The notes under the pieces are model-generated. The model had not been told where the DNA came from and did not search any database. It worked only from the letters and a program-made list of their open reading frames with translations. Positions 17,495 through 23,057 of a stretch of DNA of 43,332 nucleotides are shown here, one piece after another (position 1 is the first letter of the stretch; the number at the start of each line of letters is the position of its first letter). The position numbers were made by a program, and so were the translations under genes. This DNA comes from Opitutus sp. GAS368 (GTDB taxonomy: Bacteria; Verrucomicrobiota; Verrucomicrobiia; Opitutales; Opitutaceae): NCBI GenBank assembly GCA_945874455.1, contig CAMCHO010000018.1, positions 1 through 43,332 of the forward strand, given 5' to 3'.

Positions 17495-17527
17495 AAAAAA
17501 GACCCCAAACTGGAGTTTGGGGTCTTT
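17495..17527 (-). terminator. intrinsic terminator of the exb/coiled-coil cluster
   Basis: A perfect 14-bp inverted repeat (aaagaccccaaact, 17498-17511, with its complement at 17514-17527) leaves a very tight loop. Read on the - strand the stem is followed by six T residues (A-run at 17495-17500 on +). It lies about 26 bp after the stop of the last coiled-coil gene, so it should end the transcript that starts upstream of exbB. Because the stem begins and ends in A/T runs it may also work on the + strand. Confidence 0.88.
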
Positions 17528-17552: not shown

Positions 17553-18095
17553 TTACTTGGCGATCGGGGGAAGGGGAGGGGGAGGCGGCATGCGCGTCAA
17601 TGAACTGTTCGCCGCCCGGGTGGAAATCATCTCGGTGGTACGTTGAATTTCAAACTCAGCGTTGCGCTTGTTCACTTTTTCCAGCTCAACTTGCTTCGCG
17701 AGTTCGAAGGCCTCGCGGTTCGCCTTGTCCTTCGACTTCCGGAGACTGTCGAGCTCGATGTCTAGTTTGGAGACTTCTTTAGCTGCCTTATCACCCTCAG
17801 CCAACGCTTTGTCGGTCGCGTCCTTTACTTCTTTGTCGGCCGCTGCGAGTTTGGCGAGCTTGGCTGCTATTTTATCAGCATCCTCTTTCTCGCGCGCGGC
17901 TTGGCGTTCTTTGGCGTCGAGCGAGGCCTTCCGCTCGTTGTCTGCCTTGATTTTAGCTTTGTCGGCTTCGATTTTTTGGGCGGCAGCCAAACGAGATTTT
18001 TCTTTCGCTTCAGTCTCCGTTTGGTAACTGAAGAAAAAGATGAGAAAGGCCCCGAGCATGGCGCCTGGGAAAATGAGATACATCCATTTTTTCAT
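17553..18095 (-). CDS. small membrane-anchored coiled-coil protein with proline-rich tail
   Basis: A 180-residue protein of unknown function. Residues 3-23 form one hydrophobic helix (YLIFPGAMLGAFLIFFFSY) and act as a membrane anchor. Residues 25-150 are almost entirely Ala, Lys, Glu, Asp and Arg and read as a long coiled coil, probably periplasmic. The C-terminus ends in a run of prolines (PPPPPLPPIAK). It is the last gene of the exbB-exbD-exbD-tonB-TPR cluster, 17 bp after a second protein of the same plan and just before the terminator. The layout recalls TolA-like stalk proteins, but there is no TolA C-terminal domain. Function is not known to me. Confidence 0.82.
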   Translation of the reverse strand: MKKWMYLIFPGAMLGAFLIFFFSYQTETEAKEKSRLAAAQKIEADKAKIKADNERKASLDAKERQAAREKEDADKIAAKLAKLAAADKEVKDATDKALAEGDKAAKEVSKLDIELDSLRKSKDKANREAFELAKQVELEKVNKRNAEFEIQRTTEMISTRAANSSLTRMPPPPPLPPIAK

Positions 18096-18112
18096 GGGGA
18101 GAATTTATTGGG

Positions 18113-18670
18113 TTATTTTTTGACAGCGGCGGCAGCAGCGGCAGCAGCAGCGGCTTTGGCCGCGGCTTCAGCGGCCACATCGGCAGCGGCGATCCGATCC
18201 AGAACGATAGCGAGACTGCGGGTATTAGCCTCGGCCTTTTTTACGTAGTCACGTTGGAAGGCAACCTCCTCAACCAACTTTTTCTTATCAGATTCGATTT
18301 TCGAGATTTCTTTCTTTTCTTCCTCGATCTCCTTCTTGAGGCGTTTGGCTTGTTGCTCAAGCTTGTCCGTTTCGCGCTGCGCCCGAAATTTAGCCTGCAT
18401 GGCCTTCTCGCGCATATCCTTGTCCGCGAGATCCTTTTTTTCGTTAGCGGCCTTCTCGAGCTTCCGCTTCTCTTGGGAGGCGAGGGCGTCTTTCACGGCC
18501 TTTTCCCGGCCGCGGGCATCCTCGGCGAGCTTTGCTTCGATGACGGCGCGCGCCTTGCGTTCACCTTCAGCCAAACGAGCTTCATATCCGGAGCTGTATT
18601 GCCAGTAAACCGTACCAAAGATCACAAGCCCGATCAAAGGCGGGAAAACATATAAATATTTCGTCTTCAT
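18113..18670 (-). CDS. small membrane-anchored coiled-coil protein with polyalanine tail
   Basis: A 185-residue protein built like its neighbour: one N-terminal hydrophobic helix (residues 5-24, LYVFPPLIGLVIFGTVYW), then a highly charged coiled coil (30-155) with KRLKKEIEEEKKEISKIES, and finally an alanine-rich tail (about 160-183) that includes ten consecutive alanines. The start at 18670 (MKTKYLYVFPP) is chosen because the segment further upstream overlaps the TPR gene and is not hydrophobic. It is 31 bp downstream of the TPR gene. The shared plan with the next gene suggests an old duplication or a pair of interacting stalk proteins. No known family was recognised. Confidence 0.8.
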   Translation of the reverse strand: MKTKYLYVFPPLIGLVIFGTVYWQYSSGYEARLAEGERKARAVIEAKLAEDARGREKAVKDALASQEKRKLEKAANEKKDLADKDMREKAMQAKFRAQRETDKLEQQAKRLKKEIEEEKKEISKIESDKKKLVEEVAFQRDYVKKAEANTRSLAIVLDRIAAADVAAEAAAKAAAAAAAAAAVKK

Positions 18671-18701
18671 TTTAGAATTTAAGCGAGAGGGGTGTACGTA
18701 A

Positions 18702-20135
18702 TCAGAGGCTCTTGGGCGATTTTGAACTGTCGCGATCAGCGATCGCGGCCAGAATGGCATCTTTCAGGCGAGCGAGGTAGGCGTCTTTTTCTTTTTTTGG
18801 ATCACTGAGTGCCTCAGCTTGGCTGATCGACTTAAGTGCCTCGTCGAAGTCCTCAACCTCGTACGAGACGTTGGCCAAGAGTGTGTGCACAGCATAAGGT
18901 CTGTCTAGGCCGCCCTTGCGCAAAGCTTCTCGGTAATGATGGCGGGCATCCTTCATTTTTTCATCTTGCCGGTAGATTTCACCGATCTGGAGGTCGAACT
19001 GGCCATTCGCGGGGAAAAGTTTTGTGGCTTCTTTCAGTACAGACAGTGCGTCGAGATTACGGTTAATTTGCAGATAATAATAGCCGAGATAGATCCAGTT
19101 TTTTGGATCATTTTCGATACCGCCGCCCTTGAGGCCCGCATAGAGGAGGTCAGTCGCCTTACCGAATTGGTTAACTTGAATGTAAAGGCTGACCAAATTG
19201 AAGTTATCTTTGGGAGTATTCATGAAGCCCTGCGCTTGGGCTCGCTCAACGGTGTTGATTGCGCGGATGAAATGGGGCCGAGCTGTCGACTCGTCATTAT
19301 TCTTGTCCGAGGCGAGGTTCAGATAGCTTGCCCAAAGCTGGGGCCAATAGTCTTTCTTCGTCGGAAATTGTTTGACGATCATCTCCAACACTTCGGCGGA
19401 GCGGGCGACATCTGAACCTTGCTGCAAGATTGCCAACAGAAGGAAATAAAGATTTTCCTTCGGACGAATCGACGATTGGAAAAGTTTGTCGATCTCGGCC
19501 CGTGCTAGCTTCAGGAGTTCATGATTGATATTTTTGGGGTCGGCGACGGCCTGCTGAAGTAGAACGGTCGCGTAAAACGACATGATTTCGGGTGTAGGCT
19601 TGGGTGCGGTCGCTAGCCAGCGTTTAATGAACTCCGAAGCTTTCGCGAGGTACTTACGCTGCGCCTCAGGAACTTTGATGGTGGTGGCCTCTTGGTAATT
19701 GATCTGGGCTAAAAACAAAACCATTTCCAGTGTCTTGTTTTTATCGAAGAATTTCGGGGAGCTGGCATCTGAAAGTTGGAGTGCGAGCTCCATCGTCGCC
19801 GCGGATTTAGCCCATTGATCTTTGCCTGCTAACAGCCGAGCCCGCATATCCTGAATAAAGGCTAGATCATAACTAGCGGGACCCACCGTAGGAATTACCG
19901 CATCAAGGAGAGCGATCATCCCGTCCCAGTTTTTTGCGTCCTGGAGTGGTTTGAGCTTTTGGATTTCAGCGCTGACCTTTTCGCTGAGACTCGGAGGTTG
20001 AGCTGGTGGCGCTGGAGGCGGAGTCTGGGCAGAGGACGCTCCGGTCGTAAACACCGCAAGTGCGAGTGCGAGCGACAAAGCAATCTTCGCCGAACGAGCT
20101 TGAGTAGGGCAGGAGGTAAAAAATGAGGCAGTCAC
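18702..20135 (-). CDS. periplasmic TPR-repeat protein of the exb/tonB cluster
   Basis: A 477-residue protein. Residues 1 to about 36 form a signal peptide (basic start, then IALSLALALAVFTTGASSAQ). After a proline-rich linker, the rest is helical repeats; clear TPR-like units include IYLGYYYLQINRNLDALSVL and FDLQIGEIYRQDEKMKDARH, followed by HYREALRKGGL. TPR proteins act as scaffolds. Similar proteins are often encoded beside ExbB/ExbD/TonB in Verrucomicrobiota, so it probably binds the energy-transduction complex in the periplasm. It starts 8 bp after tonB. Base composition is visibly lower in GC than the nuo operon. Confidence 0.85.
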   Translation of the reverse strand: MTASFFTSCPTQARSAKIALSLALALAVFTTGASSAQTPPPAPPAQPPSLSEKVSAEIQKLKPLQDAKNWDGMIALLDAVIPTVGPASYDLAFIQDMRARLLAGKDQWAKSAATMELALQLSDASSPKFFDKNKTLEMVLFLAQINYQEATTIKVPEAQRKYLAKASEFIKRWLATAPKPTPEIMSFYATVLLQQAVADPKNINHELLKLARAEIDKLFQSSIRPKENLYFLLLAILQQGSDVARSAEVLEMIVKQFPTKKDYWPQLWASYLNLASDKNNDESTARPHFIRAINTVERAQAQGFMNTPKDNFNLVSLYIQVNQFGKATDLLYAGLKGGGIENDPKNWIYLGYYYLQINRNLDALSVLKEATKLFPANGQFDLQIGEIYRQDEKMKDARHHYREALRKGGLDRPYAVHTLLANVSYEVEDFDEALKSISQAEALSDPKKEKDAYLARLKDAILAAIADRDSSKSPKSL

Positions 20136-20143
20136 GGGATGAA

Positions 20144-20800
20144 TTAATCCTCGTTAAGGGTGAAGACGATGGGCACCTGCATGTGCGTGTTGACGTTCCG
20201 GCCGCCTTTGCGTCCGGGCTTGAATTTCCACTTGGATACCGCTTGGACGGCGGCAGATTCGAATTCGCGCTGGGACATTTTAACGGCGAATGCATTCTGG
20301 ACGTCACCGTTGGCATCCACGATGAAGTCTACAACGACTTCTCCAGCGATACCCGCGCGGCGCATTTCAAACGGATAGGTAGGCCGACCTTGCAAGCGGG
20401 GAACTGGTTGGTTGTCGAGCATCGACGGGTCGAACACAGCTGCGCCTCGGAATTGGGAGGTATCGCGGTCCCCAGGAATTGTCAGGACGCCGACGGCAGG
20501 CCTCATTCCTTCGGGTGGCGGGGGTTGGACCTTTTGAACAAATGAGGTATCGGTCACGATCTGGGGCACGTCCGTGAGCATAGGGGGCGCTAAGTCCATC
20601 GGCTTGATCGGTTCATCCGTAGCCTCCACTTTTTCCGGCTCATCGGGTTCTAGTTTGGGCATTTCCATCAACAGGACTTTGGGTGCCTCCAAGGCGACGG
20701 GCTTAGGCTTCGGTTCGAACTTGATCAGCATCTCGCCGAAAAAGATACCCCCGTGGATAAACGCTGACAGGAAAACTCCTAGGATGAGGTCGCTACGCAT
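20144..20800 (-). CDS. tonB: TonB-family energy transducer
   Basis: A 218-residue protein with the three-part TonB plan: an N-terminal membrane helix (residues 5-24, ILGVFLSAFIHGGIFFGE), a Pro/Glu-rich periplasm-spanning linker (about 28-75, with EPKPKPVALEAP and KLEPDEPEKVEA), and a C-terminal TonB domain (about 135-215) with YPFEMRRAGIAGEVVVDF and VSKWKFKPGRKGG. TonB transmits proton-motive force from ExbB/ExbD to outer-membrane receptors. The histidine at about residue 16 in the membrane helix corresponds to the one needed in E. coli TonB. It lies 17 bp after the second exbD. Confidence 0.92.
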   Translation of the reverse strand: MRSDLILGVFLSAFIHGGIFFGEMLIKFEPKPKPVALEAPKVLLMEMPKLEPDEPEKVEATDEPIKPMDLAPPMLTDVPQIVTDTSFVQKVQPPPPEGMRPAVGVLTIPGDRDTSQFRGAAVFDPSMLDNQPVPRLQGRPTYPFEMRRAGIAGEVVVDFIVDANGDVQNAFAVKMSQREFESAAVQAVSKWKFKPGRKGGRNVNTHMQVPIVFTLNED

Positions 20801-20817
20801 GGGAAAAGTTCCGGAGG

Positions 20818-21267
20818 TTATTTACCCGTGGGCTGTACGGTGGTTTGAACGGATACTTGGGCGATCCCTGCCTTGCGAATTTCATCAAGAGCAAGGACGG
20901 CAGCCCCAAAGCGGGCTTTGTTGTCGCCCTGCACGAGTACGCGGGGATTGGCTTCGCGGTTCTTGTAATCTACGAGCCGCGGAGCAATTTCGGCTACCGT
21001 AATTAACTCTGGGGCCGAGCCGACGCCCTGCTTCCAATAACAATTTCCCGAGTCGGACACCTGTAGGTAGACCGTGGGATCATTGGGATTGGGCTGGCTG
21101 TTCGGGTTCGCCACGGGGAGATCGACCGGGATCGAAGCGATTTTGTTCAGCGAGAGAGTGAACAATACGAACGTCGCCAAAAGGAAGAAGATGACGTCGA
21201 TGAGGGGGATAATCTCAATGCGCGCTTTTTTCTTGCCATCATCTACGTGTGAGCTGGATCCGGACAT
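20818..21267 (-). CDS. exbD: ExbD/TolR-family protein, second copy
   Basis: A 149-residue biopolymer-transport protein. Residues 15-38 contain the signature IPLIDVIFFLLATFVLFTLS; its aspartate is the protonatable residue equivalent to Asp25 of E. coli ExbD. The periplasmic part (about 45-149) has the expected TolR-like fold with VLVQGDNKARFGAAVLALDE. The first 40 residues are nearly identical to those of the upstream exbD, and the nucleotide sequences match there too, so the pair arose by tandem duplication with partial homogenisation. It lies 35 bp after the first copy. Confidence 0.92.
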   Translation of the reverse strand: MSGSSSHVDDGKKKARIEIIPLIDVIFFLLATFVLFTLSLNKIASIPVDLPVANPNSQPNPNDPTVYLQVSDSGNCYWKQGVGSAPELITVAEIAPRLVDYKNREANPRVLVQGDNKARFGAAVLALDEIRKAGIAQVSVQTTVQPTGK

Positions 21268-21302
21268 AGAATTAAAGAGGGGGATTGATTCTGCCCGAAG
21301 GG

Positions 21303-21731
21303 TTAGCGGCTGATTGCACGAACCTGAGTCTCAATAAAGATCTTCTTGAAGCCAGCCTTACGGGCTTCGTCGAAGACATAAATGGCCTGATTGAAGGGCG
21401 CATTATCATCGCCATTGATCAGGATCCGACCTTCTGGATTCGAAACGTAGTAGGCCTTCAACCGGTTGAGGAATTCATTGAGGTCAACGAATTCTTTATC
21501 CCAAGCGAGACTGCCTTGCTCGGTGACTGATACCGTGGCCGTCCCGGCGGTTTCGCGTTCGACACCACTGTCCGCCTGAGGAAGGACTACCGGCACACCT
21601 TGGGGAGTATTCAGCGAGAGCGTGAACAACACGAAAGTGGCGAGCAGAAAGAAAATAACGTCGATGAGAGGGATGATCTCAATGCGCGCCTTTTTCTTGC
21701 CGCCGCTATTACCGCCTGATGATCCGGACAT
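21303..21731 (-). CDS. exbD: ExbD/TolR-family protein, first copy
   Basis: A 142-residue biopolymer-transport protein with the membrane segment IPLIDVIFFLLATFVLFTLS near residues 19-38 and the periplasmic domain ending ARKAGFKKIFIETQVRAIS. The region after the membrane helix differs from the second copy (GVPVVLPQADS rather than SIPVDLPVANP), so the two likely form distinct or mixed dimers within one ExbB pore. It follows exbB by 49 bp. Confidence 0.92.
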   Translation of the reverse strand: MSGSSGGNSGGKKKARIEIIPLIDVIFFLLATFVLFTLSLNTPQGVPVVLPQADSGVERETAGTATVSVTEQGSLAWDKEFVDLNEFLNRLKAYYVSNPEGRILINGDDNAPFNQAIYVFDEARKAGFKKIFIETQVRAISR

Positions 21732-21780
21732 GGTGGAGGGTGGCTGGAGTGACTAATTTACCGAGAACGGGGTGCAGAAC

Positions 21781-22470
21781 TTAGCGAGCGAACGGCGCAT
21801 TGGTCTCGGACTTCTTGACCAAGATTTCGAGAGCGTGGGAGGCGTCACTGACCTCTTGCTTCGCCTGTTCGGTGCGGGCGTTAAGATAGTTGAACGGGAG
21901 CAGTGCCATGATCGCGATCAAGAGACCTGCCGCCGTGGCGATCAACGCTTCGGCTACGCCGCCGGTGATTGCACCGGACGCAGCCGCCAGATTTCCGCCG
22001 CCGAGGGCGCCGAAGGTTTTCATCATGCCGGTAACCGTACCAAGAAGACCCAACATCGGTGCCGCCGTGATGACGGTATCCAAGGTCGCCATACCCTGGC
22101 TGAAACGCCCGAGCTCTTGTCCAGAAGCGCGGACAAAGGCATTGGACATTGAATATTCCTTGTTATTCAGCGTGTAAACCAAGATGCGGGCGATAAAATC
22201 TTTGCTCTTTTTGCCAATCGCGAGCGCTCCCGCGATGTCGCGCTTCTCGACCAATTCCAGCATCTTCTCGACCGCTTGCGCTTCGCGGGTGCCGTTCTCA
22301 CGGATGATAAAGAGGAGTCGTTCAACCACGACGGTGATGCCGACGAACGACAACAATAAGATTGGCCACATGATTTCTTTGCCGGCGTGAAAGAGGTCCA
22401 TCATGGACATTTCAGTGCCGTCGGGATTCATGAGCAGGATCGCCAAGGGGATTTCGACTAGGTTGATCAT
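21781..22470 (-). CDS. exbB: ExbB/TolQ/MotA-family proton channel
   Basis: A 229-residue membrane protein. The first helix is at about 33-55 (IMWPILLLSFVGITVVVERL), then a cytoplasmic region, then the MotA/TolQ/ExbB domain with TVITAAPMLGLLGTVTGMMK and AEALIATAAGLLIAIMALLP. The threonine in the LLGTVTGM segment and the following helix line the proton path in known ExbB and TolQ proteins. It is the first gene of the cluster; 320-390 bp of non-coding DNA and the two tRNA genes lie upstream on the same strand. A later ATG (about residue 23, MMDLF) is a possible alternative start. Confidence 0.93.
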   Translation of the reverse strand: MINLVEIPLAILLMNPDGTEMSMMDLFHAGKEIMWPILLLSFVGITVVVERLLFIIRENGTREAQAVEKMLELVEKRDIAGALAIGKKSKDFIARILVYTLNNKEYSMSNAFVRASGQELGRFSQGMATLDTVITAAPMLGLLGTVTGMMKTFGALGGGNLAAASGAITGGVAEALIATAAGLLIAIMALLPFNYLNARTEQAKQEVSDASHALEILVKKSETNAPFAR

Positions 22471-22784: not shown

Positions 22785-22858
22785 AATTTTCCTCGGTGAA
22801 ATCAGAGGAGGAATTACGGAACGTAACGCTCCTTTCGGTTTTTTATTGGAGGAAAATT
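22785..22858. other. nested inverted repeats directly 3' of tRNA-Gln
   Basis: The arms aattttcctc (22785-22794) and gaggaaaatt (22849-22858) are perfect 10-bp inverted repeats enclosing 54 bp. Within them is a second hairpin formed by aggag/ctcct (22806-22810 with 22829-22833) and ttacg/cgtaa (22814-22818 with 22822-22826), followed on the + strand by a T-run (22839-22844). The outer right arm touches the encoded CCA end of tRNA-Gln. It may serve as a processing or termination structure for the tRNA transcript; on the - strand no T-tract follows the inner stem. Confidence 0.5.
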
Positions 22859-22931
22859 GGCTGCCCGACTAGGAGTCGAACCTAGACAAAACGAGTCAGA
22901 GTCGTTTGTGCTACCATTACACAATCGGGCA
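22858..22931 (-). tRNA. tRNA-Gln (anticodon CTG)
   Basis: The - strand folds as a full cloverleaf: acceptor TGCCCGA/TCGGGCA, D-arm GTGT/GCAC, anticodon stem AACGA/TCGTT with loop CTCTGAC (anticodon CTG), and T-arm CTAGG/CCTAG with loop TTCGACT. The discriminator base is G (22861), as usual for tRNA-Gln, and CCA is encoded at 22858-22860. The mature body is 71 nt. It lies 51 bp downstream of tRNA-Thr on the same strand. Confidence 0.96.
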
Positions 22932-22982: not shown

Positions 22983-23057
22983 TGGAGCCGGCGATGGGAT
23001 TCGAACCCGCAACCGCCTGTTTACAAAACAGGTGCTCTACCATTGAGCTACGCCGGC
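22983..23057 (-). tRNA. tRNA-Thr (anticodon TGT)
   Basis: The - strand gives acceptor GCCGGCG/CGCCGGC, D-arm GCTC/GAGC, anticodon stem CCTGT/ACAGG with loop TTTGTAA (anticodon TGT), and a T-arm with loop TTCGAAT. The T-stem has a G-U and one C-A mismatch in its outer two pairs. Discriminator T at 22986 and an encoded CCA at 22983-22985 complete the gene. A TAAATA element lies 8-13 bp upstream of the 5' end on the - strand and could be a -10 box. It is probably co-transcribed with tRNA-Gln. Confidence 0.94.

Follow-up and report, generated by a model that had tools for sequence, protein, structure and literature searches.

Textbook Ton systems comprise three inner-membrane proteins, and a gene cluster of Opitutus sp. 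GAS368 raises the question of what a TPR protein and two coiled-coil anchor proteins, here called CC1 and CC2, would add to such a machine. The cluster lies on the minus strand at positions 17553-22470 of the stretch that we analyzed as a whole (contig CAMCHO010000018.1, positions 1 to 43,332; 43,332 nucleotides, hereafter the window), and its seven genes are arranged in the order exbB-exbD-exbD-tonB-TPR-CC1-CC2. A preliminary description of this DNA had reported exbB, a pair of exbD genes, tonB and the TPR gene, followed by two coiled-coil anchor genes, on one strand with gaps of 8-49 bp and a strong terminator, all of which is borne out by the coordinates, by the Pfam matches (MotA_ExbB, ExbD, TonB_C and TPR) and by the energy of the terminator stem. 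The features are as follows:

exbB, 22470-21781, minus strand: 229 aa, MotA/TolQ/ExbB proton-channel subunit (Pfam PF01618, 6.3e-26)
exbD1, 21731-21303, minus strand: 142 aa, transmembrane Asp24 conserved (Pfam PF02472, 2e-26)
exbD2, 21267-20818, minus strand: 149 aa, second, divergent ExbD (Pfam PF02472, 3.5e-20)
tonB, 20800-20144, minus strand: 218 aa, transmembrane helix with His16, proline-rich linker and TonB_C domain (Pfam PF03544, 7.5e-20)
TPR gene, 20135-18702, minus strand: 477 aa from a GTG start, signal-peptide-like N terminus (Pfam TPR_14, 7.9e-11)
CC1, 18670-18113, minus strand: 185 aa, N-terminal transmembrane helix, charged helical stalk of ~140 residues, Ala-rich tail
CC2, 18095-17553, minus strand: 180 aa, transmembrane helix, unbroken helix to residue 163, Pro-rich tail
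Intrinsic terminator downstream of CC2, 17497-17526, minus strand: stem of -22.3 kcal/mol (z -5.35), then a T run

From exbB to CC2, the intergenic gaps measure 49, 35, 17, 8, 31 and 17 bp. The start of CC1 was placed at 18670, the longest open reading frame (from 18760) being one that would overlap the TPR gene. That the seven genes form one operon, with CC1 and CC2 among its members, is strongly supported. The same strand carries, upstream of exbB, the genes for tRNA-Gln(ctg) (22858-22931) and tRNA-Thr(tgt) (22983-23057).

Constancy and distribution of the gene order

The complete order exbB-exbD-exbD-tonB-TPR-CC1-CC2, on one strand, was found at 61/61 loci, comprising the window and 60 fetched loci that cover most of the genera surveyed and were mostly picked by a match to the TPR protein, five of them via matches to the CC proteins. 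Some genomes in this set have between two and four paralogous copies, each in the fixed order, and the median gaps within the set are 16-58 bp. A scan of named genomes, overlapping the first set, yielded 73 loci, with the whole order present at 63; the other 10 were incomplete, most of them lying on short contigs or having their match close to a contig end, and one of them (L173) stops directly after the TPR gene.

The named members of the family to which the window genome belongs are Opitutaceae, and a survey of this family (200 genomes from 49 genera) detected the TPR protein in 162 genomes, CC1 in 150 and CC2 in 153. Among 194 genomes drawn from across the phylum, strong matches to the TPR protein (E below 1e-140) and CC2 (E below 1e-49) were confined to this family and a single genome from another family of the same order, while an order-wide survey of 223 genomes revealed two further families with the module; the same seven genes stand at three loci in other Opitutales families (L132, L234 and L235). 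At the site of a weak CC2 match in one further genome (L236, in G513) there was no cluster. The module is characteristic of Opitutaceae and sporadic in neighboring families.

The preliminary description had allowed that the coiled-coil genes might be unrelated passengers and had proposed comparing the gene order across related genomes. In that comparison CC1 and CC2 stood beside the TPR gene at every one of the 61 loci, and we reject the passenger reading, by which the two genes would be kept by chance. Nothing was found in its favor, other than that short low-complexity genes are easily over-read, and the fixed order, together with the invariant residues and the indel-free length described below, makes it extremely improbable. 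Because they are always encoded together with the Ton motor and the TPR protein, CC1 and CC2 almost certainly belong to the machine as integral parts and are not bystanders.

The Ton motor and its receptors

In known systems an Asp of ExbD and a His of TonB are the motor-coupling residues, and the transmembrane His of TonB is thought essential for this coupling. Among the relatives of the operon, the transmembrane Asp is present in 61/61 sequences of exbD1 and in 60/60 sequences of exbD2 with the column filled, and the transmembrane His in 56/61 TonB proteins; at five loci (L092, L099, L103, L105 and L113) the His is lost and Ile or Leu stands in its place. The host genome (G000; 5.07 Mb in 333 contigs) contains about 105 matches to the barrel of TonB-dependent receptors (PF00593), and its sole full-strength TonB_C match is the tonB gene of the operon. 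Weaker TonB_C matches reach 2.2e-11 (a 146-aa frame) and 3.1e-6, the latter adjoining another ExbB/ExbD pair (locus C20) that is probably Tol-like. From the family membership of the proteins and the number of receptor matches we infer that ExbB and the ExbD pair would act as a proton-driven motor and that TonB would pass force to the outer-membrane receptors; the conserved Asp and His residues, the receptor matches and the single strong TonB_C match indicate that the cell very probably relies on this operon as its main Ton energizer. In two other genomes, frames with tandem TonB_C repeats within one protein were seen (G126:C298 1856-7077 and G088:C254).

Clusters of the PVC group have been described that combine a TPR gene, a TolQ-like gene and two TolR-like genes with a vWA protein as the force transducer (PMC12204202). 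The operon resembles them in having one ExbB/TolQ-like protein, a divergent ExbD/TolR-like pair and a TPR gene, and in occurring in a Verrucomicrobiota-related group; it differs from them in having as its transducer a genuine TonB, with a TonB_C domain, and in possessing the CC pair in addition. A vWA domain was not matched by Pfam in any of the seven proteins.

CC1, CC2 and the TPR protein

Judged by profile comparison, CC1 and CC2 are paralogues (probability 99.3, E 2e-20 over 150 columns). Neither belongs to a family in Pfam, NCBIfam or PDB, and the search for solved relatives returned chance coiled-coil matches only. Both begin with a short Lys/Asn-Lys stretch, continue with one membrane helix, in which Tyr, Pro and Phe are invariant or near-invariant, and proceed into a charged helix. 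Over 40 diverse sequences, roughly 19-80% identical to the window protein, the stalks are practically indel-free (CC1 residues 6-164, CC2 residues 5-168), a pattern that would befit a rod whose length matters. AlphaFold2 models CC2 as a single helix spanning residues 3-163 (161 residues; mean pLDDT of 91, mostly above 90), longer than the coiled coil of 120 residues given in the preliminary description, and the two proteins are predicted to be helical rods. With a rise of 0.15 nm per residue, the part of the helix outside the membrane (~140 residues) would measure about 21 nm, which is near the width of the periplasm. The heptad pattern is strong in the distal half of CC1 (permutation p below 0.0005) and weak, below significance, in the distal half of CC2 (p 0.13). 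The best-conserved stretch of CC2 outside its membrane helix is the near-invariant motif KRNAE(F/L)EIQR at about residues 143-152. The poly-Ala tail of CC1 and the poly-Pro tail of CC2 are probably not the essential part, because they differ among relatives.

Variation in the number of CC genes was observed at a few loci. One related genus carries a third, tandem CC gene in the order CC1-CC1'-CC2 (L099 7966-8526, L103 7967-8509 and L110 3291-3830), and a partial second CC2 lies 1.2 kb downstream at another locus (L093 10094-10420), its C-terminal stretch being nearly that of the intact CC2.

In the TolQ-TolR-TolA (Tol-Pal) system, TolA likewise has a membrane anchor and then, as domain II, a long, charged helix rich in Ala; the host genome has a separate ExbB/ExbD/TonB_C-like locus elsewhere (C20). 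The likeness to TolA raises the alternative that CC1 and CC2 are motor-driven force transducers of the TolA/TonB kind, their helices seated on ExbB and their rods moved or pulled so as to work alongside TonB on peptidoglycan or the outer membrane; the near-invariant distal motif of CC2 could then bind a target, and each operon would offer two ExbDs and three potential transducers. Unlike TolA, however, CC1 and CC2 carry transmembrane helices without a conserved His (the SHLS motif of the TolA family) and, according to the alignments, without an Asp as in ExbD, whereas the TonB of the same operon keeps its His at 56 of the 61 loci. Pfam likewise detected no C-terminal TolA/TonB domain that could bind a receptor in either protein, nothing folded follows the end of the CC2 helix at residue 163 of 180, and the operon already has a TonB. 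Since the membrane helices of the CC proteins are without the His and Asp of TonB/TolA and ExbD, a direct force-transducing role becomes less likely, and we consider it improbable. The preliminary description had noted that the stalks are without the receptor domain of TolA, which agrees with our result, and had proposed them as periplasm-spanning partners of the motor; of this proposal the constant partnership (61/61 loci) and, given the helix of 161 residues, the plausibility of a periplasm-long rod are upheld, but the missing His and Asp speak against coupling of the membrane helices to the motor.

The TPR protein is predicted, from an AlphaFold2 model with a mean pLDDT of 90 and helices from 52 to 472, to be a periplasmic TPR solenoid; Foldseek searches with this model returned generic TPR superhelices alone and were uninformative. 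The TPR protein, CC1 and CC2 share one rate of evolution, with mean identities of 0.36-0.37 versus 0.48-0.64 for the rest of the operon, and their evolutionary distances correlate best among themselves (0.77-0.81), in part through the shared species history of linked genes. That the strongest correlations run among these three proteins, and not with the motor, would also suit a complex of their own, serving a separate envelope task (spacing of the inner membrane from the peptidoglycan, or partnering of CC1 and CC2 with the TPR protein only) and merely co-expressed with the Ton motor. Their linkage to exbB-exbD-exbD-tonB, however, is kept without a break in most genera of the family, also where the operon has paralogous copies, and the whole set occurs together in other families too; a separate task of this kind is unlikely in our estimation.

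Relation to Ttp systems and a proposed scaffold

In Vibrio vulnificus, TonB2 requires TtpB2 (DUF3450), TtpC2 and TtpD2 (TPR) besides ExbB2, ExbD2 and TonB2, and deletions have shown TtpB2 and TtpD2 to be essential for TonB2 function (PMC6957404). The six-gene operon of this TonB2/TonB3 (Ttp) type, which encodes TtpB (DUF3450), TtpC, ExbB2, ExbD2, TonB2 and TtpD (TPR), has in common with the Opitutaceae operon an ExbB, an ExbD, a TonB, a TPR protein and two coiled-coil-rich proteins. The TPR protein resembles TtpD in its place after TonB and in its size (425 aa for Vibrio TtpD2 [PMC6957404] versus 477 aa here), and the coiled-coil proteins form a homologous pair in both systems (probability of 88.6 for TtpB versus the TtpC N-domain and of 99.3 for CC1 versus CC2). 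The description of the locus as an undescribed system must be narrowed to this extent, the overall plan being that of the known Vibrio TonB2 (PMC6957404); it holds for the coiled-coil pair and its family-wide use, and full-text searches of the open-access literature found no description of the pair.

The differences lie in the accessory proteins. The Opitutaceae operon has two ExbDs, no DUF3450 protein and no TtpC, that is, no ExbB fused to a periplasmic coiled-coil domain: the best DUF3450 match in the genome is 3e-4, below the cut-off, the single ExbB of 229 aa is without a TtpC-like N-terminal extension, and no match to the TtpC N-domain was obtained at the genome's remaining ExbB loci. CC1 and CC2, in turn, differ from TtpB and TtpC in being non-homologous, membrane anchored and encoded downstream of the TPR gene. 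Homology of CC1 and CC2 to DUF3450 or the TtpC N-domain was sought by profile comparison and not found (probabilities of 0.2-7.4, those of CC1 and CC2 against the TtpC N-domain being 2.3 and 7.4); single members match PF11932 at 0.001-0.008, a level that they also reach against many unrelated coiled-coil families. The TPR protein matches TtpD by profile (probability 98.7), but its single-sequence scores are no better than those of generic TPR controls from the phylum, and we do not claim that it is a TtpD orthologue. The shared Ttp-like plan can be explained in two ways: (i) the core may descend from a common ancestor, the accessories having been swapped, or (ii) even its shared part may be convergent, because TtpD is no closer to the TPR protein than generic TPR proteins are.

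Ttp-type loci are themselves present in the order. TtpB-, TtpC- and TtpD-like genes occurred together at 9/9 loci examined in other Opitutales families, and in the family of the window all 16 DUF3450 loci examined had TtpB-, TtpC- and ExbD-like genes, with a TtpD-like TPR gene at 15 of them and the contig ending first in the remaining one. DUF3450 exceeded the cut-off in 9 of the 11 genera without CC2 versus 8 of the 38 with CC2 (Fisher p 4e-4, from genus counts with kinship ignored). The CC and Ttp modules are distributed complementarily, although replacement is not strict, because eight genera carry both; one genome (G009) is an exception, lacking both modules and giving no more than a weak TonB_C match. 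Ttp-type Ton clusters are numerous in some Opitutaceae (L214-L229), where a genome can have as many as ten DUF3450 matches, and at four of these loci (L217, L223, L225 and L226) the interval between exbD and TtpD yielded no tonB-like gene.

The reading that we favor, and that we hold to be probable by a modest measure, is that this Opitutaceae lineage uses the operon as its Ton energizer and that CC1 and CC2 are dedicated scaffold subunits, doing the job of TtpB and TtpC with unrelated proteins. The scaffold could be assembled along the following lines: (i) CC1 and CC2 would stand in the inner membrane as anchored alpha-helical rods of fixed length, reaching about 20 nm into the periplasm; (ii) the two rods probably pair with each other; (iii) their conserved distal ends probably bind the periplasmic TPR protein; and (iv) the rigid scaffold of CC1, CC2 and the TPR protein would steady TonB or dock it near the outer membrane, as TtpB (DUF3450) and TtpC might do in Vibrio TonB2. 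We favor a scaffold since the TPR protein, CC1 and CC2 share one rate and correlate best with each other, an argument that is weak in so far as linked genes share their history. A bolder version, which we put forward tentatively, is that the Opitutaceae swapped TtpB and TtpC for an unrelated, duplicated, membrane-anchored rod pair, and that energizing roughly a hundred receptors requires the trans-periplasmic scaffold of fixed length that this pair would form with the TPR protein.

To conclude, what is new here is the coiled-coil pair and its family-wide use, and the module is best read as a lineage-specific variant of a Ttp-type Ton energizer. After Vibrio TonB2, it is a second case of a Ton motor constantly accompanied by a TPR protein and two coiled-coil proteins, and it suggests that some Ton machines generally require a scaffold in the periplasm. 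For the Opitutaceae, a family rich in TonB-dependent receptors, it defines a concrete, testable set of subunits, including two protein families left unnamed by current databases.
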